Below are positions 16,197 through 35,209 of a stretch of DNA of 64,000 bases, one piece after another. The DNA is from Natronomonas salina (GTDB taxonomy: Archaea; Halobacteriota; Halobacteria; Halobacteriales; Haloarculaceae). Under the pieces are notes generated by a model that worked only from the letters and a program-made list of their open reading frames with translations, was not told the DNA's origin and searched no databases. Both the position numbers and the translations under genes were made by a program. The stretch spans positions 2,418,001 through 2,482,000 of the forward strand of contig NZ_CP058335.1 in NCBI RefSeq assembly GCF_013391105.1, written 5' to 3'. Position 1 is the first letter of the stretch, and each line of letters begins with the position of its first letter.

Positions 16197-16233
16197 GATG
16201 ACAACCAAAGTTGCGCTAATACAAGCGCATTTG
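16197..16233 (+). promoter_or_regulatory. Shared cobalamin promoter element, site 1 (upstream of CbiX-like gene)
   Basis: GATGACAAC at 16197-16205, exactly 10 bp, CTAATACAAG at 16216-16225, 3 bp, ATTTG at 16229-16233. The same modules with the same spacing occur at 22716-22750, 24831-24866 and on the minus strand at 35209-35175. The element ends 11 bp before the ATG at 16245, so it covers the core promoter. Confidence 0.65.
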
Positions 16234-16244
16234 TTTCAACGACC

Positions 16245-16955
16245 ATGACGGACGCACTCCTGCTCGTCGGGCGGCAGCACACGCGCGAGGTGGCACAGCG
16301 GCACGCGAGGCGGCTCCGGGAACGGGGCGTCGCCGACAGCGTCGCCGTCGAGACGTACGACCGCGACCCAGCGGAGCTGGACGTCGACGCCGGCGACGCC
16401 ACCTACGTCGTGCCGATGGCGGTCGCGCCGGACCGCGACACCACCCGCGGCATCCCCGGGGCGCTCCCCGCGGCGCGGCACTGCCAGCCCATCGGCACCA
16501 GCCCCGCGGTGAGCCGCGCGCTCGCCGACCGCGCCGCGGCGGCGACCGCCCCCGGCGACGACGCCTCGCTCGCGCTCGTGGCCTTCGGCGACACCTCCCT
16601 GGAGGGCTCGCGGCGGACGACCGAGGACCACGCCGCCCGCCTCCGGGAGTCCGCCGCCTACGGCGAGGTGACGACCGCCTACCTGCTGCAGAACCCCGCC
16701 GCAGAGTGCGTCCGATACAACCTCTCGGGCGACCGAGCCGTCGCCGTCCCGTTCTTCCTGGCCGCCTGCGAGGAGACCGAGCGCGCCCTCCCAGAGAAGC
16801 TCGAACTCGACCGCGGCGGCCTGGCCTACGCCGACCCGCTCGGCGCCCACGAGGCCGTCACCGACGCCATCGAGGCGGAGGTCGCGAAGGCCCGCGCCAT
16901 CGACGCCGGCACCGCGTCGGTCAGCCCCGTCGCCACGGACGGCGGCGGCAAGTAG
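16245..16955 (+). CDS. CbiX-like chelatase-fold protein with altered active site
   Basis: 236 aa in two chelatase-like halves. The first half has LLLVGRQHTREVAQRHARRL in place of the usual G-H-G-S-R block, and VPMAVAPDRDTTRGIP in place of the helix that normally carries the second metal-binding His. The second half has VAFGDTSLEGSRRTTEDHA and VPFFLAACEETERALPEKL. Overall order resembles SirB/CbiX cobaltochelatases, yet the canonical His pair is not obvious; His13 in GRQHT may replace it. Its position between cbiA and cobN units and its promoter element (site 1) support a cobalt or corrinoid role. A C-terminal ~20-residue tail is unstructured. Confidence 0.75.
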   Translation: MTDALLLVGRQHTREVAQRHARRLRERGVADSVAVETYDRDPAELDVDAGDATYVVPMAVAPDRDTTRGIPGALPAARHCQPIGTSPAVSRALADRAAAATAPGDDASLALVAFGDTSLEGSRRTTEDHAARLRESAAYGEVTTAYLLQNPAAECVRYNLSGDRAVAVPFFLAACEETERALPEKLELDRGGLAYADPLGAHEAVTDAIEAEVAKARAIDAGTASVSPVATDGGGK

Positions 16956-22715: not shown

Positions 22716-22750
22716 GATAAACTCCGCTTTCTCTAGTACAAGTGTGTTTG
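22716..22750 (+). promoter_or_regulatory. Shared cobalamin promoter element, site 2 (cobN / ChlID divergent gap)
   Basis: GATAAAC at 22716-22722, 10 bp (TCCGCTTTCT), CTAGTACAAG at 22733-22742, 3 bp, GTTTG at 22746-22750. GATAAAC is placed as a TATA box for a leaderless GTG start at 22744; the CTAG core lies between TATA and start, a position typical of repression. Being within a 34-bp divergent gap it could also affect cobN. Confidence 0.7.
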
Positions 22751-26121: not shown

Positions 26122-27369
26122 CTACGGCAGGTGGAGCGCGTAGCCGCCGCGCACCTCGCCGTCGTCGTGGTACCGGACGGGTTCCTCGACGAGCGCCAGC
26201 CGATTGCCGTCGAGTCCCGCGGCGGTCACGACACCCTCGCAGTCGATGGTCTCGACGAGGCCGTCGGCGACGTCGAACAGCCGCCAGCCGTGGACGACGG
26301 GGTCGCGGTCCCGGAAGTGCTGGGCGACGGGGACGAGCAGCCGGTCGCCGTCCGCGTCGATCTCGTGGGCGAAGCCGCCGACCTCGGCGCGCCAGCGCTC
26401 CTCGCCGTTCAGCGAGTAGCCGAACGCCGACTGCTCGTCCGGGTGGCGCTCGTCGGTCTCCCGGCCCTCCTCGGGGAAGGAATTGCCCGTCAGGAAGGCG
26501 ACGCCCGAGTCCGTCGCGTGGACGTGGTTCGGGTATGCGTACACACGGTCGCCGCGGTCGAGGGCGATGCCGAGGTCGACCGCCCAGTCGACCGCGCCGT
26601 CCGTCAGCCGGTACCCTCGGTAGTCCGCGTGGCTCGCGACGACCAGTCCTTCGGCAGTCGCCGCGACGTCGCCCACGCGGCGCTGGGCTCCGCGGTCGGG
26701 GTCCCAGGTCCACCGCTCCCGGCCGTCACCGTCGAGGACGACGAGGCCGTCGTCGTGGTCGCCGGGACACCGGTTGTACGCGACCGCGACGCCGCTCGCG
26801 GTTCCTCCGTCACCGCTCTCCCGTTCGGTGGCCTCCCGTCGGTCGGCCGCGCCGCTCTCGAACGGAACGACGGCGATGGGCGAGGCGTCGGCGGCGTGGC
26901 GCCAGCGGACCGTGCCGTCGGGCGCGAGCGCGTAGACGGTGCTCTCGAAGTGGCGCTGGTCCCCGCGACGCTCGTACCGTCGCGCGGCGACGTAGGCGGT
27001 GTCACCGTCGACCGAGGCGTCGACGACCATCGGCAGGAAGAACCGCGTGTCCTTCGTTGGTTCGCCGATGGCGTCGGTCGCGTCGTGGCGCCAGCGCTCC
27101 TCGCCGGCTTCGAGGTACCTGATCGCGCCGCGAGCGGACCGCTCGCCGACAATCACCCCGTCGCCGAACGGGACGAGGGTGATGGCGCTGCCCTCGCCGT
27201 CGGCGGTCCACCGCTCCGTTCCTTCGGGATCGAACGCGCGGACGCGCCCGTCCGCGAGGCCGACGACGGGACCGTCGTCGGTCGTCGTGACGCCGGAGCG
27301 GCGGCCCGCCTGTCGGGATCCGCAGGGATTAACGTCGCCGAGCGGGACGCGTCGGGCGGTCCTACTCAT
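26122..27369 (-). CDS. PQQ-like beta-propeller repeat protein in the cobalamin operon
   Basis: 415 aa. At least six blades can be seen from the recurring Trp motif: TERWTADGEG, EERWRHDATD, TVRWRHAADA, RERWTWDPDR, AVDWAVDLGI, EERWRAEVGG. No signal peptide or lipobox is convincing, although the first 30 residues are basic and contain a Cys. BamB-like/PQQ-like propellers act as scaffolds or, less often, as enzymes. It overlaps the DUF3209 gene by 8 bp and so is the last gene of the long operon. Role in corrinoid metabolism is unknown. Confidence 0.82.
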   Translation of the reverse strand: MSRTARRVPLGDVNPCGSRQAGRRSGVTTTDDGPVVGLADGRVRAFDPEGTERWTADGEGSAITLVPFGDGVIVGERSARGAIRYLEAGEERWRHDATDAIGEPTKDTRFFLPMVVDASVDGDTAYVAARRYERRGDQRHFESTVYALAPDGTVRWRHAADASPIAVVPFESGAADRREATERESGDGGTASGVAVAYNRCPGDHDDGLVVLDGDGRERWTWDPDRGAQRRVGDVAATAEGLVVASHADYRGYRLTDGAVDWAVDLGIALDRGDRVYAYPNHVHATDSGVAFLTGNSFPEEGRETDERHPDEQSAFGYSLNGEERWRAEVGGFAHEIDADGDRLLVPVAQHFRDRDPVVHGWRLFDVADGLVETIDCEGVVTAAGLDGNRLALVEEPVRYHDDGEVRGGYALHLP

Positions 27370-27733
27370 CCGTCGGGAACGCCTCGTGGAGGGCCTCGTG
27401 GGAGTCCCCGAGGCCCTCGAGGACGCCCTCGCCGTGAGTCGACAGGCGCTCGAGGGCGCCCTCGGCGTCCCGGACGGCGACGAGGCGCCCGCGGAGGTAG
27501 TCGTACGCCTGTCCGTCGGCGTCGGCGGCGGCGACCTCCTCCTCGAGCTCGACGAGGGCGGTGTCGAGGTGCCGCCGGCACTCCGCCAGCGACTCCGCCT
27601 CGGCGAGGGCCGCGATGTGGGGGTCGGGGTCGTCGCCGATCTCGTCGCGGGCGTGCTTGCGTGCGGCGTCGTCGCCGACGCCGAGGCTGTTCATCAGGCC
27701 GAGTCGCAGGGCTTCGATCTCGTGGCAGGTCAT
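27362..27733 (-). CDS. DUF3209 protein
   Basis: 123 aa, predicted all-helical and acidic. Starts MTCHEIEALRLGLMN and has LAECRRHLDTALVELEEEVA, the pattern of DUF3209, a family found with cobalamin genes. Cys3-His4 at the N-terminus and Cys in AECRRH are candidate metal ligands. It sits 6 bp downstream of cbiX and overlaps the propeller gene. Molecular function not established. Confidence 0.88.
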   Translation of the reverse strand: MTCHEIEALRLGLMNSLGVGDDAARKHARDEIGDDPDPHIAALAEAESLAECRRHLDTALVELEEEVAAADADGQAYDYLRGRLVAVRDAEGALERLSTHGEGVLEGLGDSHEALHEAFPTDE

Positions 27734-27739
27734 GTGCGA

Positions 27740-28927
27740 TCAGAGTGTCTGTGTGACTAAATCGGATACGATGCGGTCCCGCTGCAGGGACGAGGCGAGG
27801 CGGTCGGCGTCGTCCGGCGCGACGTCGCCGTACCAGACGCCGTCGGGGTAGACGGCGACGTTCGGGCCGTCGCCACAGCGGCCGAGACACGACGACCGCG
27901 TGATGCGGGCGTCGACGTCGCGGTCGCGAGCCGCCTGGCGGAGCCGCTCGAGGACCGTCGCCGCGCCGTCGCCCGCGCAGGTGCGGTTCGTGCAGACGGT
28001 GACGTGCTTGTCCGGCGCGTCGTGGACGTGCGGCTCGTCGTCGACCTCGGAGCGGTCGGCGTGGGCGGCCCGGTGGGTCATCGCCCGCAGCATCGCCCGG
28101 GCGCCGCCGGCCTCGCCCTCGAAGCCGTCCATCTCGACCTTGTACTTGCACGTGTCGCAGGACATCGAGACGTCGCCGGCGCGGGCCGCCTCGAAGCGGT
28201 CGGCCAGTACCTCCAGCAGGCGGTCGTCGGTGCCGAGCGGGTCCCCGGCCGCGGCGTCGACGTACGGATAGTCGGCGTCGAACTCCTCGGTCCGGTCGCG
28301 GATCCGCTCCGTGAGGACGCCGTCGCCGAGCATGTACGGCAGGACGACAACCGCGTCGGGGCGCCGCTTGGCGACGGTGTGCAGCGTCTCCTCGAGCAGC
28401 GGCTCGGTGACGCCGATGAAGGACGCCCGGACGTCGCCGAAGGCGCGGCCCTCGTACAGCAGCCGGCCGAGCTTGTGGACGTCGGCGTTGGCGTCCGGGT
28501 CGGAGGAGCCGCGGGCGCAGAGCACGACGAGCACGTCGTCGGCTTCCCGGTCGACGCCCAGTTCGTCCTCGACGGCGGCAGCCCGGTCGTCGAGCAGTTC
28601 GACGATGGCGGGGTGGACGCCGAGGTGCTTGCCGCTGTGCAGCGTCACGTCGTGGTCGGCGCGCGCCCGCCGGACGACCAGCGGGACGTCGGCCTTCACG
28701 TGGCTCGCGGCGAACAGCGACAGCGGCAGGACGGTCACGTCCGAGGCGGAGGGGGCCAGCGCGCCGATGGCGTCGCCGATGGTCGGCTCCGCGAGTTCGA
28801 GGAAGCCGGCGTCGACCGGTAGCCCGAGTCGGCCCTCCAGGTCCGCGGCGAGCGTCCGGACCTGCTCGTTGGACTTCTCGCGGCGCGAGCCGTGGCCGGC
28901 GAGGACGACCGCCTCCGCGTCGAGCAT
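27740..28927 (-). CDS. cbiX: Sirohydrochlorin cobaltochelatase with C-terminal 2Fe-2S ferredoxin-like domain
   Basis: 395 aa. First half (1-125) is a complete CbiX domain: AGHGSRREKSNEQ and LFAASHVKADVP give both metal-binding His residues. The second half (140-260) repeats the fold but lost both His (CARGSSDPDAN, YMLGDGVLTERI). Then CDTCKYKVEMDGF, a His/Asp linker, and a thioredoxin-like ferredoxin domain with CTNRTCAGDG and SSCLGRCGDG. CbiX inserts Co into sirohydrochlorin at the start of the anaerobic route. Start ATG 28927 overlaps the previous stop by 1 bp. Confidence 0.94.
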   Translation of the reverse strand: MLDAEAVVLAGHGSRREKSNEQVRTLAADLEGRLGLPVDAGFLELAEPTIGDAIGALAPSASDVTVLPLSLFAASHVKADVPLVVRRARADHDVTLHSGKHLGVHPAIVELLDDRAAAVEDELGVDREADDVLVVLCARGSSDPDANADVHKLGRLLYEGRAFGDVRASFIGVTEPLLEETLHTVAKRRPDAVVVLPYMLGDGVLTERIRDRTEEFDADYPYVDAAAGDPLGTDDRLLEVLADRFEAARAGDVSMSCDTCKYKVEMDGFEGEAGGARAMLRAMTHRAAHADRSEVDDEPHVHDAPDKHVTVCTNRTCAGDGAATVLERLRQAARDRDVDARITRSSCLGRCGDGPNVAVYPDGVWYGDVAPDDADRLASSLQRDRIVSDLVTQTL

Positions 28928-29595
28928 CAGTACTCCTCCGCCTGCTCGACGCTCCGGCGGAGCTTCCGGCGTCGACTCGGCGCGAACAGCCCCGAACGCT
29001 CGCTGCCCTCGTAGACCCACTCGCCGAAGGCTGGCGCCGCGCCGTCGTCGAGGCCGAACCAGTAGCCGCCCGACGAGGTCTCCGAGACCTCTCCGTACGG
29101 CGCCGCGACCGGCGCGTCCTCGAGCAGGCGCTGGATTCGCTCGAGCAGCTTCCGGTCGTCGTGGACGAACGAGACGCCGACGGTGCCGGCCGAGGACTTG
29201 AAGCAGACCGTCCCGCAGCCCTCCAGCAGCCCGCGGAACAGCTGGCGGTCGTGGTCGGCCAGCACGTCGAGCCGGTAGCCGCCGTCGTCGCCCTCGAAGG
29301 GGAGCCCGAGGGCGGCCGCCGCCCGGTCGCCGACGCCGCCGAGGGCCTGCACGGTGTAGCTGTCCTCGCTGCGGATGATCGCCGTGTCGTGGGCGTACTC
29401 CCGCCCGACGATCCGGTGGTCGATGACGTCCGCGCCGGCCACCGCAGCCAGGCGGTCCGCGGCCGTCTCGTCGGTCGTCCGCACCGTCACGCCGTCTCGG
29501 GTCACCTCGCCGTCGCCGACGACCCGACCCCAGAAGTACGCCGTCTCGGGGTGGGCGTCGAGGAGGTTCCTCGGCGCGCCGGTCTCGACGCTCAT
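28927..29595 (-). CDS. LAGLIDADG-fold protein embedded in the cobalamin operon
   Basis: 222 aa. Two LAGLIDADG-type repeats are readable: residues 19-31 AYFWGRVVGDGEV, and 118-130 QLFRGLLEGCGTV followed by VGVSFVHDDRKLLERIQRLL, the usual strand plus helix of the second repeat. The first motif keeps its acidic residue (Asp28); the second has Cys127 where Asp is expected, so nuclease activity is doubtful. It is joined to its neighbours by ATGA and TGATG overlaps. I interpret it as a domesticated homing-endonuclease fold with a role in cobalamin synthesis or its control; no exact function is known to me. Confidence 0.7.
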   Translation of the reverse strand: MSVETGAPRNLLDAHPETAYFWGRVVGDGEVTRDGVTVRTTDETAADRLAAVAGADVIDHRIVGREYAHDTAIIRSEDSYTVQALGGVGDRAAAALGLPFEGDDGGYRLDVLADHDRQLFRGLLEGCGTVCFKSSAGTVGVSFVHDDRKLLERIQRLLEDAPVAAPYGEVSETSSGGYWFGLDDGAAPAFGEWVYEGSERSGLFAPSRRRKLRRSVEQAEEY

Positions 29596-29891
29596 GGTTC
29601 CCTCCGGTCACCGCTCGCGGGTCGCGCAGGCTCCCCGCTCGCTCGTTCCGGGGACTCGCTCCGCTCGTCTCCGCGCACCTCGATGGCATCTAGCGGACAC
29701 GCCGCGGCGGCCTGTTCGGCCTCGTCGCGGCGCTCGTCGTCGAACGTCGCGACCAGTTCGCCGCCGTCGCGATCGCCGCCCGGCAGCGTCACGAGGCCGT
29801 CCTCGGCCTCGGCGAAGCGGCCGTCGCGGACGAGACACGCGAAGACGCCGTCGCAGGCGTCGAGGTCGACCGAAACGCTGTATCCCGACAT
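29592..29891 (-). CDS. Small ferredoxin-like iron-sulfur protein
   Basis: 99 aa. Begins YSVSVDLDACDGVFACLVRD, giving Cys-x5-Cys, and AAAACPLDAIEV supplies the closing CP motif, a one-cluster 3Fe-4S/4Fe-4S ferredoxin pattern with one usual Cys lacking. The C-terminal ~25 residues (Ser/Glu/Arg/Pro) are disordered. Start ATG at 29891; ends overlapping the LAGLIDADG-like gene (ATGA). Likely electron donor for ring contraction or reduction steps in this operon, by context. Confidence 0.82.
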   Translation of the reverse strand: MSGYSVSVDLDACDGVFACLVRDGRFAEAEDGLVTLPGGDRDGGELVATFDDERRDEAEQAAAACPLDAIEVRGDERSESPERASGEPARPASGDRREP

Positions 29892-29893
29892 GG

Positions 29894-30964
29894 TCAGTAG
29901 TCGTACTTCGTCTCGTAGCCGCGCGGAGTGACCATCCGGTCGTCCCACACGTACGTCTCCCCGTTGCCGACGACGATGGTCGTCGTCATGTCGACGATGT
30001 CCGCCTCGCCGAGTTCCGGGAGCGTCCCGAGGTCGGTTATCATCGTCGCCTCGTCGTCCCTGGAGGCGCCGTGGACGATGCCGACCGGCGTCTCTGGGTC
30101 GCGGTGCTCCAGCAGGATCTCGCAGCACCGCTGGAAGTTCTCCCGGCGCTTCCGGCTCCAGGGATTGTAGATGGCGATCGTGAACCCCTCGGGCGCGATG
30201 GCGTGCAGCCGCGACTCGATCTCGTCCATCGGGGTGAGGTGGTCCGACAGCGATACGGAGACCGTGTCGTTGACCAGCGGGGCGCCGAGGCGGGCGCCAC
30301 AGGACTGCGCTGCCGGCACGCCGGGGACGACCTCGAAGTCGACCGCCGAGGCCGTCCCGCCCTTCGACTCCAGGATCTCCAGGGCGAGGCCGGCCAGCGC
30401 GTAGACGTTCGGGTCGCCGGAGCCGACGATGGCGACGTCGTTGCCCGCCAGCGCCCGGTCGATGGCCTCCTCGGTCCGGGAGACCTCCCCGCACATCGGC
30501 GTCGAGTAGATGTCGTCGGCGCCGTCGGTGACGTCGTCCGGCAGCAGGTCGACGTACGTCGTGTAGCCGACGATGTGCTCGGCGTCGGCCAGCGCGGCCT
30601 TCGCGCGGGCGGTCATCCCCTCCGGCTCGCCCGGACCGAGCCCGACGGCGATCAGGCGGCCGGGGTCGCCCTCGAAGTCGTCGACGGTGGCGCCGACCTC
30701 CTGCTCGTCGCTGGATGAGGACGCGCCGCACTTCGAGGCGGACGCGTCGCTCGAGGCGGCTCCGCACGTGCTCTCCGTCGACGTCTCGGTCGTAGAGGCG
30801 CCGCACTTGCTCTCGTTAGAGGGCTCGGTGCTGGCCTGGGCCGCCGTCGAGGAGCTCGCGGCTTCGCCGCTCGCTTCCGAGGCGCTCCGCGCCTCGCTCG
30901 CCCCGCACTTCGATTCGCTGCCTGTCGATGCCTCGGTCGTCTCCGCGGTGTTGTCAGTGCTCAT
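29894..30964 (-). CDS. cbiH: Precorrin-3B/cobalt-factor III C17-methyltransferase with Cys-repeat tail (CbiH1)
   Basis: 356 aa. From residue about 98 it is a full tetrapyrrole methylase: LIAVGLGPGEPEGMTARAKA, VGSGDPNVYALAGLALE, VVPGVPAAQSCGARLGAPL and a C-terminal VTPRGYETKYDY, all CbiH-like (ring contraction). The first ~90 residues are a Ser/Thr/Glu/Ala linker with four Cys at 20, 54, 67 and 79, each in (K/T)CGA(S/A). No similar tail is on CbiH2. Start ATG 30964 is 1 bp from the CbiH2 stop. Confidence 0.9.
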   Translation of the reverse strand: MSTDNTAETTEASTGSESKCGASEARSASEASGEAASSSTAAQASTEPSNESKCGASTTETSTESTCGAASSDASASKCGASSSSDEQEVGATVDDFEGDPGRLIAVGLGPGEPEGMTARAKAALADAEHIVGYTTYVDLLPDDVTDGADDIYSTPMCGEVSRTEEAIDRALAGNDVAIVGSGDPNVYALAGLALEILESKGGTASAVDFEVVPGVPAAQSCGARLGAPLVNDTVSVSLSDHLTPMDEIESRLHAIAPEGFTIAIYNPWSRKRRENFQRCCEILLEHRDPETPVGIVHGASRDDEATMITDLGTLPELGEADIVDMTTTIVVGNGETYVWDDRMVTPRGYETKYDY

Positions 30965-30965
30965 T

Positions 30966-31856
30966 TCAGAAGTCCTCCACCTCGCGGCCGCCGCGCGGCG
31001 TCACGAGGTACTCGCCGTGGTCGTTGGTCCACTCGTGGGACTCGTGGGTGCCCACGAGGATGCTGGTCCCCATGCCGCCGACCTTCTCGTCGTGCTCGAT
31101 CGCCTCCCCGAGCGTTGTGATGGTGTGGGTCTCGTCCTCCAGGTTCCGCCCCGCCTCGCCGCGGCCGGCGTCGTTGAAGATGGCGACGGGGACGTCGTCG
31201 GCCCGCTCCTCGCGGAGCACCTCGATGGCGCGCTCGTAGTCGCGCCAGCAGTTGTAGAGGACGACGACGAACCCGGAGATGGCGGCGGCCCGCAGCTTCT
31301 CGGCGATCTCCTCCCAGCCGCGCCACTTGTCCGACAGCGATATCGTACAGAAGTCGTTCGACAGCGGCGCGCCGAGGTTGGCGGCCCCGCCCAGCGCTGC
31401 CGTCACGCCGGGGACGATCTCGATGGGGACGTCGTAGGCGTCCTCCTCCTCGGCCATCAGGAAGACGAGGTCGCTCTTCCCGTAGACGTTCGGGTCGCCG
31501 CCGGAGACGTGCGCGACGTCCTGGCCGTCCCGGACGCGCTCGAAGGCCTCGCGGGCCAGTTCGACCTGCTGGCCCATCGACGACCGCACGATCTCCTGTT
31601 CGTCGCCGGTCGGTCGCGTCGCGACGCCGCCATCGGTCGCCGTCTCCGGCGGGAGCGTCCCGTCCTGTCGCAGGAACTCCTGGTAGAGGTTCGACGCGAT
31701 GACGCAGTCGGCCGTCTCGACGACGTCGCGGGCGCGCTGGGTCATCGCGTGCGGCAGGCCGGGACCGATGCCGACGACGTAGAGCGTGCCATAGTCGTCG
31801 GTGTCGGCGTCAGTTTCGCCACCACTCGCGGGTCGCTCCGCTCCCCGCTCGCTCAT
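30966..31856 (-). CDS. Second CbiH-type C17-methyltransferase paralogue (CbiH2)
   Basis: 296 aa. YVVGIGPGLPHAMTQRARDV, VSGGDPNVYGKSDLVF and EIVPGVTAALGGAANLGAPL match the CbiH/CobJ group; ends VTPRGGREVEDF, parallel to CbiH1. It differs by VLYNCWRDYERAIEVL and an internal insertion (residues 62-85). Whether it shares the C17 reaction or replaces another missing step cannot be told from sequence. It lies between cbiG and CbiH1 in the operon. Confidence 0.88.
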   Translation of the reverse strand: MSERGAERPASGGETDADTDDYGTLYVVGIGPGLPHAMTQRARDVVETADCVIASNLYQEFLRQDGTLPPETATDGGVATRPTGDEQEIVRSSMGQQVELAREAFERVRDGQDVAHVSGGDPNVYGKSDLVFLMAEEEDAYDVPIEIVPGVTAALGGAANLGAPLSNDFCTISLSDKWRGWEEIAEKLRAAAISGFVVVLYNCWRDYERAIEVLREERADDVPVAIFNDAGRGEAGRNLEDETHTITTLGEAIEHDEKVGGMGTSILVGTHESHEWTNDHGEYLVTPRGGREVEDF

Positions 31857-31887
31857 TCCGAGACCTCCCTTCGGTCGGTCTCGCGCG

Positions 31888-32916
31888 TCATCGTCCCACC
31901 GCCACCGTCACGGCCTCGTCGTACCGCTCCTTCTCGCGGGCCAGTTCGTGCTCGCGGCCGCCGGCGATGGCCGACGCCTCGGCGATGCCGGGCCAGCCGA
32001 TCAGCTCCTTCGCCCGCGAGGGGGTCGGCCCCTCGTAGTCCAGCAGCGTCGCCTTCTCGAACAGGACGACGCCGGCGTCGATCTCCCGGGCGGCCTCGTA
32101 GAGCCCCTCCTCGCCCTCCTTCCGCGTCGCGGTGGCGACGAACTCCACGTCCGAGAAGTCGCGGTCGAGGTCCGCGAGGGCGGCCTCCCAGGCGTCGAGT
32201 ACCTGGGCCTTCTTCACGCCGTCGACGGTGCCGGTCCCGAGGACGACGCCGTCGGTGTTCCGCTTCATCACGGTCACGTCGTCGCCGACGAGGACGGCCC
32301 GGGGGCCGTCCAGCCGCTCGACGGCGTCGATCTCGTCGTTCAGGACGGCGAGGTTCGTCGCGACCGTCGAGTCGCCGTTGACAACGTGGGCGTCCAGCGC
32401 CTTCGCCTTCGACTCGATGCCCTGCTTGCCTGCGGCCTCGCTGGCGGTCGTCATCGCCGGCACGGCGCCCATCTTCGAGAGGTCGTGGGCGACCTGATTG
32501 GCGCCGTGGTGACCGCCGGTTATCGGGATGGCCCACGTCAGCTCCTCGTCGACGACGACGAGCGCGGGGTCGTCCCACTTGTCGTCGAGCAGGTGGGCCG
32601 TCTTCCGCATCGCGATGCCGGAGGCCATCAGCCCGACGAAGCAGTCGTACTCCCCCCAGTGCTCCTCGAACACCTCGCCGTGGTACTCGACGACGTCGAT
32701 GCCGTCGTAGTCGTCCGCCAGTTCGTCCTGGATGTCGCGCGCGACGGGCAGCTTCCGCTCGAAGCTCACGATGGCGATCTCCTCCGCAACCTCGCCGTCG
32801 GAGTCGGGCGTCGAGCAGTGGCCACCGTCGGACGTCTCGTCCGACGAGGGTCGGCTCGCTTCGCTCGCCTCCCCGCCGCCGCTGTCGCTGGTGTCGGTGG
32901 TGTCGTCAGTACTCAT
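31888..32916 (-). CDS. cbiG: Cobalt-precorrin-5A hydrolase
   Basis: 342 aa. CbiG opens the delta-lactone of cobalt-precorrin-5A. The CbiG N-domain is seen in CFVGLMASGIAMRKTAHLL and PITGGHHGANQVAHDLSKM; the C-domain has VATATRKEGEEGLYEAAREI. About 45 N-terminal residues are an acidic Ser/Gly/Asp tail with one Cys. Start ATG at 32916 is 1 bp after the cbiF stop region; 31 bp separates it from CbiH2. Confidence 0.94.
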   Translation of the reverse strand: MSTDDTTDTSDSGGGEASEASRPSSDETSDGGHCSTPDSDGEVAEEIAIVSFERKLPVARDIQDELADDYDGIDVVEYHGEVFEEHWGEYDCFVGLMASGIAMRKTAHLLDDKWDDPALVVVDEELTWAIPITGGHHGANQVAHDLSKMGAVPAMTTASEAAGKQGIESKAKALDAHVVNGDSTVATNLAVLNDEIDAVERLDGPRAVLVGDDVTVMKRNTDGVVLGTGTVDGVKKAQVLDAWEAALADLDRDFSDVEFVATATRKEGEEGLYEAAREIDAGVVLFEKATLLDYEGPTPSRAKELIGWPGIAEASAIAGGREHELAREKERYDEAVTVAVGR

Positions 32917-32917
32917 G

Positions 32918-33802
32918 TCAGTCGTCTCCCTCCGCTGTGTCTCCGCTCCTGTTCGCCCAGTCGCCGTAGAGGTACGACCGCTCGTACCCCTCGTCGCTCG
33001 CGCCGCGGGCCGCCCCGCCGACGATCACCATCGCGGAGGCCCGGTAGCCGGCCTCCTCGACGGCCTCGTCGATGGTGGCGACGGTGCCCTCCAGCACGTC
33101 CTCGTCGGGCCAGGACGCGTGGTAGACGACCGCCACCGGCGTCTCGGGGTCGGCGCCCGAGTCGAGCAGCCGGTCCATCGTCTCCGGGATGGCGTGGGTG
33201 CCGAGGTAGATGCAGGTCGTCACGTCGCCCTTCCCGACGAAGTCGGCGATGTGATCGTCCTCGGGGTCGAGCGTCTTCCCCTGCGGACGCGTGAAGGCGA
33301 CGTGGTTGGCGACGCCGTTGAGCGTCAGCTGCGTGCGCAGCGTCGCGCTCGCGGCGAACGCCGACGTGACGCCGGGGACGATGTAGGTGGGCACGCCCTC
33401 GTGCTCCAGGGCGTCCATCTGCTCGAGGGCGGCGCCGTAGATTGCTGGGTCGCCGCTGTGCAGCCGGACGACCTCGCGGCCGTCCTCGTAGGCGTCCCGC
33501 ATCAGTGGGATTAGCTCCTCGAGGTCCTTGCCGACGCTGTTGACCAGTTCGGCGTGGTCGCAGTAGACCTCCAGCAGTTCGCTGTTGACCAGCGAGCCGG
33601 CGTGGACGACGAGGTCGGCGTCGGCCAGCAGTTCCCGGCCGGCGACGGTCAGCAGTCGGGGGTCGCCCGGCCCGGCGCCGACGAAGGGGATGCCCTCCTG
33701 TTCGTCGCCGGCGCCGTGCTCGTAGATGCGGTCGTCGCGCTCCCCGGCCAGCCGCGCCCGCTCGGCGTCGATGGCCGCCTGCGGGTCCGCCTCCTCAGTC
33801 AT
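32918..33802 (-). CDS. cbiF: Cobalt-precorrin-4 (C11)-methyltransferase
   Basis: 294 aa. PFVGAGPGDPRLLTVAGREL, VHAGSLVNSELLEV, VRLHSGDPAIYGAALEQM and YIVPGVTSAFAASATL identify CbiF/CobM. A basic, His-containing N-terminal ~35 residues precede the core. Overlaps cbiL by 8 bp. Methylates C11 using SAM after ring contraction. Confidence 0.95.
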   Translation of the reverse strand: MTEEADPQAAIDAERARLAGERDDRIYEHGAGDEQEGIPFVGAGPGDPRLLTVAGRELLADADLVVHAGSLVNSELLEVYCDHAELVNSVGKDLEELIPLMRDAYEDGREVVRLHSGDPAIYGAALEQMDALEHEGVPTYIVPGVTSAFAASATLRTQLTLNGVANHVAFTRPQGKTLDPEDDHIADFVGKGDVTTCIYLGTHAIPETMDRLLDSGADPETPVAVVYHASWPDEDVLEGTVATIDEAVEEAGYRASAMVIVGGAARGASDEGYERSYLYGDWANRSGDTAEGDD

Positions 33803-34610
33803 GGTGGACCTCCTCTCGCGGTTCCACTGCTCGACCGGTCGAGGCGCGATGCGCCTCGCTGTCCCCGCCCGATTCGGCGACCGCTAGCTCCTCCGCGACG
33901 GTTCCGCCACCGTCGGTCGCCGCTTCCCGGCCGAACGCCGCGGTCGCCGGCTCCTCGCCGGCGTCCGGCTGCTCGGCGTAGGCGACGGTGTAGTAGTCGC
34001 GCTCGTCGAGCCGGTCGGGGTCGCTCGTCACGACCGACTCGTGGCCGTCCATGAACAGCCGACGGCCGTAGGTGACGTCGTAGCCCGCCTCGAGCAGCCC
34101 CTCGTGGGTCGCGGGCACGTCGGTGACCTTGAACAGCACCATCCGGTCGGGGCCGGTAGGGGCCTTCCCGCCGGCCGCCTCGCGGAGGACGAGGTCGGAG
34201 CCGGCCGTGATCTCGACGTCCAGCGCCGTCGCGAACGCGGTCACCGCCGAGACACCCGGGACGACCTCCAGGTCGACCTCCGGGTGGAAGCGGTCGAGCG
34301 TCCGCCGGAGGTGGCCGAACGTCGAGTAGACGTTCGGGTCCCCGAGCGTGACGAAGGCGGCGCTGCCGTCCTCGGCGACGGGGGCGACCTCCTCGGCGGC
34401 GGCCTTCCAGGCCCGTCGGAGTTCGTCCTCGTCGCGCGTCATCGGGAAGTCGAGGTCGCCGAGCTGGGACTCGTCGACGTACTCGGTCGCGACGTTCCGG
34501 GAGAGCCGCCCGGGCGTGTAGACCGTATCGGCGTCCGCGAGGACCTCGCGGCCGCGGACGGTCACGAGCCCGGCGTCGCCTGGGCCGAGCCCGACGCCGT
34601 ACAGCGTCAC
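33795..34610 (-). CDS. cbiL: Cobalt-factor II (C20)-methyltransferase
   Basis: 271 aa. LYGVGLGPGDAGLVTVRGRE, AAFVTLGDPNVYSTFGHLRR and EVVPGVSAVTAFATALDVEI are CbiL/CobI motifs. The C-terminal ~40 residues are an acidic tail outside the methylase fold. Overlaps cbiT by 4 bp and cbiF by 8 bp, so translation is coupled along the operon. Confidence 0.94.
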   Translation of the reverse strand: MTLYGVGLGPGDAGLVTVRGREVLADADTVYTPGRLSRNVATEYVDESQLGDLDFPMTRDEDELRRAWKAAAEEVAPVAEDGSAAFVTLGDPNVYSTFGHLRRTLDRFHPEVDLEVVPGVSAVTAFATALDVEITAGSDLVLREAAGGKAPTGPDRMVLFKVTDVPATHEGLLEAGYDVTYGRRLFMDGHESVVTSDPDRLDERDYYTVAYAEQPDAGEEPATAAFGREAATDGGGTVAEELAVAESGGDSEAHRASTGRAVEPREEVHHD

Positions 34611-35146
34611 GCCGCACCTCCGACGACGACGTAGACGGGGTTGTTCGAGTCGAAGCTGGTCGCGCCGGCGAGCTCGTAGCCCGTCGAGACCTGCACCTGG
34701 ACGATCTCCTCGAACAGGTCGCGCTCGCGGAAGGCCCGGACGGCGTCGCCGGCGACCTCCAGCCGCGAGACGTTCATGACGATCCGGTCGACGCCGGTCT
34801 CCGCGGCGTGGTCCAGTACCGCGCCGTAGTTCCTCGACCCGCCGAGGAACAGCGCGTCGGCGTCGTCGGGGAGCCCCTCGGGGGCCTCCCCGTCGATCAG
34901 TTCAACGTCGCCGACGTCGTTCGCCGCGAGGTTCTTCCGAGTCGTCTCGAGCCGCTCTGGCTTCCGTTCCAGCGCCGTCACGCGGCCGGCCCGACGGGCG
35001 GCCTCGACGGTGACCGCGCCGGTGCAGGAGCCGACCTCGACGAAGTGGTCGGCCGGGCCCAACTCGAGCTTCCCGAGCGTCACCGACCGGACCTCCGGCT
35101 TCGTCGGCCCGGCCTTCGCGTCGTGGGGGAGCGCTACGCGTGCCAT
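34607..35146 (-). CDS. cbiT: Cobalt-precorrin-6B C15-methyltransferase (decarboxylating), CbiT
   Basis: 179 aa Rossmann methyltransferase. Motif I appears as HFVEVGSCTGAVTVEAARRA, followed by VTALERKPERLETTRKNLAA and ALFLGGSRNYGAVLDHA, the CbiT pattern. First gene of the long cbi operon; ATG at 35146 is 28 bp downstream of promoter site 4. Confidence 0.94.
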   Translation of the reverse strand: MARVALPHDAKAGPTKPEVRSVTLGKLELGPADHFVEVGSCTGAVTVEAARRAGRVTALERKPERLETTRKNLAANDVGDVELIDGEAPEGLPDDADALFLGGSRNYGAVLDHAAETGVDRIVMNVSRLEVAGDAVRAFRERDLFEEIVQVQVSTGYELAGATSFDSNNPVYVVVGGAA

Positions 35147-35174
35147 GGGGATACAACTACAGCAGCGCGTAAAA

Positions 35175-35209
35175 CAATTATGCTTGTTCTAGGGAAAGTG
35201 TGGTTTATC
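35175..35209 (-). promoter_or_regulatory. Shared cobalamin promoter element, site 4 (upstream of cbiT operon)
   Basis: Read on the minus strand: GATAAAC (35209-35203), 10 bp CACACTTTCC, CTAGAACAAG (35192-35183), CAT, AATTG (35179-35175). Spacing is identical to site 2, and even the spacers resemble each other (both hold CTTTC at the same place). A second TATA-like TTTTA follows just downstream, so which box drives cbiT is open. Confidence 0.7.

Follow-up and report, generated by a model that had tools for sequence, protein, structure and literature searches.

A LAGLIDADG-fold protein in the haloarchaeal cobalamin operon: a disabled homing-enzyme relative apparently re-used for cobalt handling, cobalt sensing or operon switching

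Introduction

What is a protein with the fold of a homing endonuclease doing inside a vitamin B12 operon? The question is raised by an open reading frame for 222 residues with an ATG start, hereafter LAG, on the minus strand of a 64,000-nucleotide stretch of the Natronomonas salina genome (the window), whose RefSeq product name is either 'cobalamin biosynthesis protein' or 'hypothetical protein'. The first-pass annotation, made from the letters of the DNA, had described it as a domesticated LAGLIDADG protein that is integrated into the operon and had taken the WhiA protein as a precedent for DNA binding. Domestication of this fold is already known from WhiA (PMC3781837) and from yeast HO (PMC7282813), and of the four publications in the literature searched that name both LAGLIDADG and cobalamin, none appears by its title to concern the haloarchaeal B12 operon. 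In Haloferax volcanii, the gene HVO_B0055, located between cbiX1 (B0054) and B0056/cbiH2 (B0057), was listed in 2021 as 'function unassigned', and the main text of that work gives no fold or mechanism for it (PMC8305020). Judging from its position, HVO_B0055 is probably the orthologue of LAG.

Results

Operon setting of LAG

The coordinates of LAG, of its sequence features and of its neighbours are given in Table 1. The minus-strand operon runs in the order cbiT-cbiL-cbiF-cbiG-cbiH1-cbiH2-ferredoxin-LAG-cbiX-DUF3209-PQQ-like protein, so that the immediate upstream neighbour of LAG is the ferredoxin gene and cbiH2 lies one gene beyond. The genes cbiF, cbiG, cbiH1 and cbiH2 were identified by NCBIfam/Pfam, cbiT was named from a methyltransferase fold match and its position, and cbiL from its position and length; all upstream genes were also identified by synteny. 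Coupled overlaps had been proposed on both sides of LAG, and both were found: the stop codon of the ferredoxin gene overlaps the LAG ATG in the sequence ATGA (29595-29592), and the LAG stop codon overlaps the cbiX start in TGATG, with base 28927 common to both genes. In 37 loci, LAG and cbiX overlap by 4 or 1 nt.

Table 1. Positions in the window of LAG, its sequence features, the neighbouring genes and the element preceding cbiT.
Feature	Position	Strand	Basis or remark
LAG, LAGLIDADG-fold protein predicted to be catalytically dead, 222 aa	28927..29595	-	ORF, Pfam LAGLIDADG_3, AlphaFold model and PDB fold matches, 71 syntenic loci
Ferredoxin (Fer4_15)	29592..29891	-	Pfam E=3.3e-14; overlaps LAG start by ATGA
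CbiX cobaltochelatase with C-terminal thioredoxin-like 2Fe-2S domain	27740..28927	-	Pfam CbiX 4.2e-47, 2Fe-2S_thioredx 1.5e-6
DUF3209, co-occurring partner	27362..27733	-	Pfam E=9.4e-50
Upstream operon genes cbiT, cbiL, cbiF, cbiG, cbiH1, cbiH2	29894..35146	-	separate bases, see text
LAGLIDADG motif 1, FWGRVVGDG, residues 21-29	29509..29535	-	profile alignment to RpoA'' intein
Asp28, catalytic position 1	29512-29514	-	variable across family
LAGLIDADG motif 2, FRGLLEGCG, residues 120-128	29212..29238	-	Pfam match, intein alignment
Cys127 at catalytic position 2	29215-29217	-	intein alignment
Cys131, first strand past motif 2	29203..29205	-	invariant 50/50
His69	29389..29391	-	invariant 50/50; kept in divergent G021 homologue
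C-terminal helix with basic run RRRK, residues 206-221	28933..28980	-	AlphaFold secondary structure, column counts
Conserved inverted-repeat element ACAAGCATAATTGTTTT	35171..35187	-	about 26-45 nt before cbiT ATG; kept with and without LAG

Distribution and selection

Most B12-making haloarchaea keep LAG in the B12 operon. The gene was found in 204 and cbiG in 210 of the same 391 Halobacteria genomes; both were present in 202, cbiG only in 8, LAG only in 2 and neither in 179 (Fisher p about 1e-98, ancestry ignored), which bears out the co-occurrence with haloarchaeal cobalamin clusters that had been suggested as a check. In one of the two LAG-only genomes, G340, the assembly is incomplete and LAG sits at the end of a contig; the second, G317, carries a homologue without a recognisable cbi gene nearby. 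Homologues with an insertion between both repeats were observed in G014 and G317 (loci L134 and L135). The order cbiH2-ferredoxin-LAG-cbiX was kept in 71 of 71 loci from named genomes, and the gene is single-copy in its own genome; apparent paralogues, considered because some genomes gave extra matches, proved to be fragments of a single gene.

When 393 genomes from across the phylum were scanned with the profile, LAG homologues appeared solely within the order to which the window belongs, no homologue was found in the viral contigs searched, and the eight plasmid records with LAG are all haloarchaeal. On one of the plasmids of Haloarcula rara (NZ_CP119786.1; loci L049 and L051), the cobalamin region around LAG is present twice. 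Against close relatives, LAG shows dN/dS values of 0.17-0.37, similar to those of CbiX (0.14-0.25). The gene is under purifying selection, and within the searches made the family is confined to haloarchaea and vertically kept. It is inherited together with an early cobalt-insertion module that comprises the ferredoxin, CbiX with its 2Fe-2S domain and, usually, DUF3209.

Evidence for the LAGLIDADG fold

The two repeats that had been read by eye, FWGRVVGDGEV (residues 21-31) and FRGLLEGCGTV (120-130), are both present in LAG, as is the strand-helix segment SFVHDDRKLLERIQRLL (142-158). Against Pfam LAGLIDADG_3, the window protein scored E=3.5e-4 and 21.2 bits over residues 116-159, just below the curated cut-off of 22.5, and 39 of 50 diverse family members matched the same profile (best E 4.5e-5). 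The family profile also aligns to the homing-endonuclease domain of the haloarchaeal RpoA'' intein across both motifs, with FWGRVVGDG against FFGAYLAEG at motif 1 and LFRGLLEGCG against LLRGYLSGDG at motif 2. Searches of NCBIfam and PHROGs with LAG gave nothing useful, and single-sequence and profile searches of the PDB sequences retrieved no LAGLIDADG chain; such chains were obtained by fold search alone.

Structure prediction had likewise been proposed as a check, and the LAGLIDADG fold was seen in it. AlphaFold, run on the family alignment (pLDDT 91.2, pTM 0.88), predicts helices at residues 16-28, 43-53, 88-96, 109-127 and 148-159 and strands at 29-32, 35-40, 57-66, 74-85, 128-133, 138-145 and 178-182, an order that corresponds to a tandem LAGLIDADG protein, in which strand pairs and helices come after each of the two motif helices. 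What follows this core in the model is no more than a brief turn and a single helix (198-201 and 206-221). At E<=0.001, Foldseek matched 44 chains of the PDB, without exception LAGLIDADG proteins or inteins, with I-Tsp061I, PI-SceI, TliVMA, WhiA and I-DmoI as the top matches; the TM-scores of 0.42-0.62 indicate that the relation to solved LAGLIDADG structures is remote. On the combined weight of alignments and predicted model, LAG is a member of the LAGLIDADG fold superfamily and the similarity is not due to chance.

Since the fold search also matched the bI3 maturase and the C-terminal helix is basic, LAG could be an RNA-binding, maturase-like protein that regulates the operon mRNA post-transcriptionally, a role that we consider improbable.

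Loss of the catalytic acids

Across 50 family members, catalytic position 1 (Asp28 in LAG) is occupied by D in 32, S in 12 and N, A or G in 6, and is thus non-acidic in 18 of 50. Catalytic position 2 corresponds in the RpoA'' intein alignment to Cys127, as the first-pass annotation had proposed, and is Cys in 49 of 50 members and Ser in the remaining one. Both catalytic acids have therefore been lost as conserved features, which, as far as residue conservation can tell, makes endonuclease activity very unlikely.

Other positions are strictly kept. Cys131, His69, Arg75, Arg108, Arg121, Glu125, Arg208 and Lys211 are invariant, R209 and R210 of the RRRK run nearly so, and R65, K133 and C127 are also near- or fully invariant. 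The conserved basic residues fall on predicted strands and on the C-terminal helix. From the topology of the model, C127, C131 and H69 may lie near one another.

These data bear on the possibility that LAG is a homing endonuclease, still active or active until recently, or an intein remnant, inserted by chance in the operon. The fold and the distant similarity to the RpoA'' intein agree with such an origin, but the catalytic positions are not conserved, the gene is single-copy and occupies the same position in all 71 loci, it is under purifying selection, and a viral homologue was searched for and not found. Synteny and active-site loss effectively refute this reading, and the earlier claim that LAG is integrated and not a parasitic insertion holds, the gene showing no sign of mobility.

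Operons without LAG and the metal context

Eight genomes carry a cbi operon without LAG, its absence being confirmed by profile search. Where their clusters were readable, the ferredoxin and DUF3209 were also absent from the operon, except in G052. A CbiX with a His-rich tail, defined as at least 10 His per 30-residue window, was found in 7 of the 7 genomes without LAG that yielded a CbiX (G001, G007, G129, G269, G319, G359 and G052); in the eighth, G318, the stretches searched gave no CbiX. By comparison, among the CbiX proteins of 71 loci with LAG, 70 have at most 6 His per 30-residue window, and the exception, L060, combines LAG with a His-rich CbiX. The CbiX of the window has the 2Fe-2S thioredoxin-like domain and no His-rich tail. 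The association between His-rich CbiX and LAG absence (Fisher 3e-9) is overstated by this value, since the CbiT tree needs 3 label changes and the number of independent events is thus small. The His-rich tails of CbiX in haloarchaea without LAG (L127, L129, L130, L131, L234, L235 and L238) can be as long as about 100 residues. The exact LAG slot of G052, between the ferredoxin and the CbiX with the 2Fe-2S domain, is taken by the His-rich CbiX of this genome.

We also considered whether the genomes without LAG are all anaerobes, and rejected this: three of the eight (G001, G007 and G129) lack cytochrome oxidase subunit I, which suggests that these three are anaerobes, and the others have it.

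Genome G021 has a divergent LAG homologue (L132 11825-12421), 34% identical in the profile alignment, that shares a gene run (L132 10444-13453) with a rhodanese and two Cation_efflux transporters. It keeps His69 and both Cys positions. Elsewhere in this genome, the cbi operon keeps the ferredoxin and lacks LAG, and a CbiX without a His-rich tail and DUF3209 lie on another contig. Of all the observations, the cation-efflux setting of the G021 homologue hints most strongly at a metal role for LAG. The same genome has apparent intein insertions in a dCTP-deaminase-like gene (L132 15361-17442) and in the gene of the RNA polymerase subunit A'' (L133 5986-8595).

Taken together, the complementary distribution of His-rich CbiX and the efflux context in G021 make cobalt handling a serious alternative to DNA binding. 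LAG would then no longer bind DNA, and would form a complex with the ferredoxin and CbiX in which it delivers or gates cobalt, as the His-rich tail of CbiX may do elsewhere, or it would act as a partner in Fe-S handling. The slot exchange in G052, the contrast between 7 of 7 genomes and 1 of 71 loci, the overlap of the LAG gene with both neighbours and the Cys/His conservation are consistent with this proposal, which we regard as possible. It is weakened by the conserved basic residues on the strands and the C-terminal helix, which suggest nucleic acid, by L060, and by the fact that operons without LAG represent few independent lineages. In addition, Thermus has CbiX and DUF3209 adjacent without LAG, which suggests that haloarchaea added LAG and the ferredoxin to an older unit; a Thermus gene that seemed to occupy the LAG slot in a frameshifted record is actually CbiG.

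The missing B12 enzymes

CbiD and CbiJ were each found in 0 of 26 haloarchaeal genomes, with positive controls detected, and it has been suggested, in general terms, that these gaps are filled by cluster genes without an assigned function (PMC8305020). LAG could be one of the missing enzymes, at the CbiD or the CbiJ step, and its positional equivalent HVO_B0055 is on the published candidate list. Nevertheless, the eight cbi-operon genomes without LAG lack CbiD and CbiJ too, so LAG is not a general substitute for them, and the fold search shows no methyltransferase or reductase fold for LAG. It is thus unlikely that LAG is the missing CbiD or CbiJ, and the probability that we attach to such an enzymatic role is very small.

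A conserved element upstream of cbiT

A strongly conserved element of roughly CTANNACAANCANAATTGTTTT lies upstream of cbiT and ends about 26 nt before the ATG, the position expected for the TATA box of a leaderless haloarchaeal transcript, and it may therefore belong to the promoter. The inverted repeat ACAANCANAATTGTTTT looks like a candidate operator of a haloarchaeal B12 regulon: two sites with at most 3 mismatches were found in the window, against a chance expectation of 0.04. The second site (16221-16237, plus strand, 3 mismatches) stands just before another CbiX-like gene (16245-16955), and a partial match, CTAGTACAAG, occurs at 22733-22742 (plus strand), where the chlID gene region begins.

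That this operator is specific to LAG was considered and rejected, as the element is present in all nine operons without LAG, a number that includes G021, whose LAG homologue is elsewhere. Its conservation in these operons points to another reader or to a basal element, and weakens the idea that LAG binds it. Operons differ in the base that follows CAANC: of 67 with LAG, 62 have A, and of 9 without it, 8 have G. G052, which lost LAG recently, retains the A. This base may co-vary with the presence of LAG or simply follow ancestry. Closer to the ATG, operons without LAG lack a second element, GTTGT, which many operons with LAG have lost as well.

Discussion

The evidence obtained in this work describes a disabled relative of homing enzymes that has apparently been re-used for cobalt handling or sensing, or for switching of the operon. 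Its closest structural relatives are the archaeal intron and intein homing endonucleases, as I-Tsp061I, I-DmoI, PI-PfuI and the haloarchaeal RpoA'' intein share the tandem two-repeat LAGLIDADG architecture and gave the best fold and profile matches. Those enzymes, however, cut DNA and move, whereas LAG has no conserved acids and no splicing domain and is kept at one genomic position.

WhiA/DUF199 (PDB 3hyi and 3hyj) and LAG both have a degenerate LAGLIDADG fold, have lost the catalytic residues and are encoded by vertically kept host genes. WhiA, however, is bacterial, has no tie to B12 and binds DNA through an added C-terminal HTH domain, and its LAGLIDADG domain alone cannot footprint (PMC3781837). 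LAG has only the short basic C-terminal helix, together with a conserved Cys/Cys/His set; no WhiA family match to it was found in the NCBIfam/Pfam searches and no HTH in the predicted structure, so that the analogy is weaker than had been stated. The CbiX with a His-rich tail offers another comparison, since it takes the place of LAG in G052 and substitutes for the module elsewhere; as a chelatase enzyme of unrelated fold, it is analogous to LAG at most in cobalt handling.

We tentatively favour, over a cobalt-handling partner of the chelatase, the view that LAG is a cobalt- or redox-responsive DNA-binding regulator. DNA would be held by a saddle-shaped sheet (R65, R75 and K133) together with the basic helix at the C terminus; the old Mg2+ site, now Cys127/Cys131 and perhaps His69, would bind cobalt or sense the redox state; and DNA binding would tune the B12 genes, and the cation-efflux genes in one genome, to cobalt supply. 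The ancestral DNA-binding fold, the conserved basic residues, the Cys/His residues at or near the former metal site and the efflux-gene context are consistent with a regulator. The same view draws on the constant operon position, the co-occurrence with cbiG, the purifying selection, the His-rich CbiX of genomes without LAG and, although confounded by ancestry, the base after CAANC. The failure of the LAGLIDADG domain of WhiA to footprint alone and the retention of the cbi element without LAG argue against it, and the tight coupling to CbiX and ferredoxin would equally suit a protein complex. A further idea concerns the site itself: the Mg2+ centre of a homing endonuclease may have been rebuilt as a Cys/His cobalt site, making LAG a LAGLIDADG cobalt sensor or chaperone that serves B12 synthesis and, in one lineage, efflux; we consider this rather unlikely.

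Domesticated LAGLIDADG proteins are few, the examples being WhiA, yeast HO and the intron maturases, and LAG, with its constant place in a core vitamin operon throughout an archaeal class, would extend this list to metabolism. Of the four genes in the haloarchaeal B12 cluster that had no assigned function, one can now be given a fold, a partner module, an active site predicted to be dead and roles that can be tested, and since Haloferax volcanii is genetically tractable, tests of the role of LAG would be direct.
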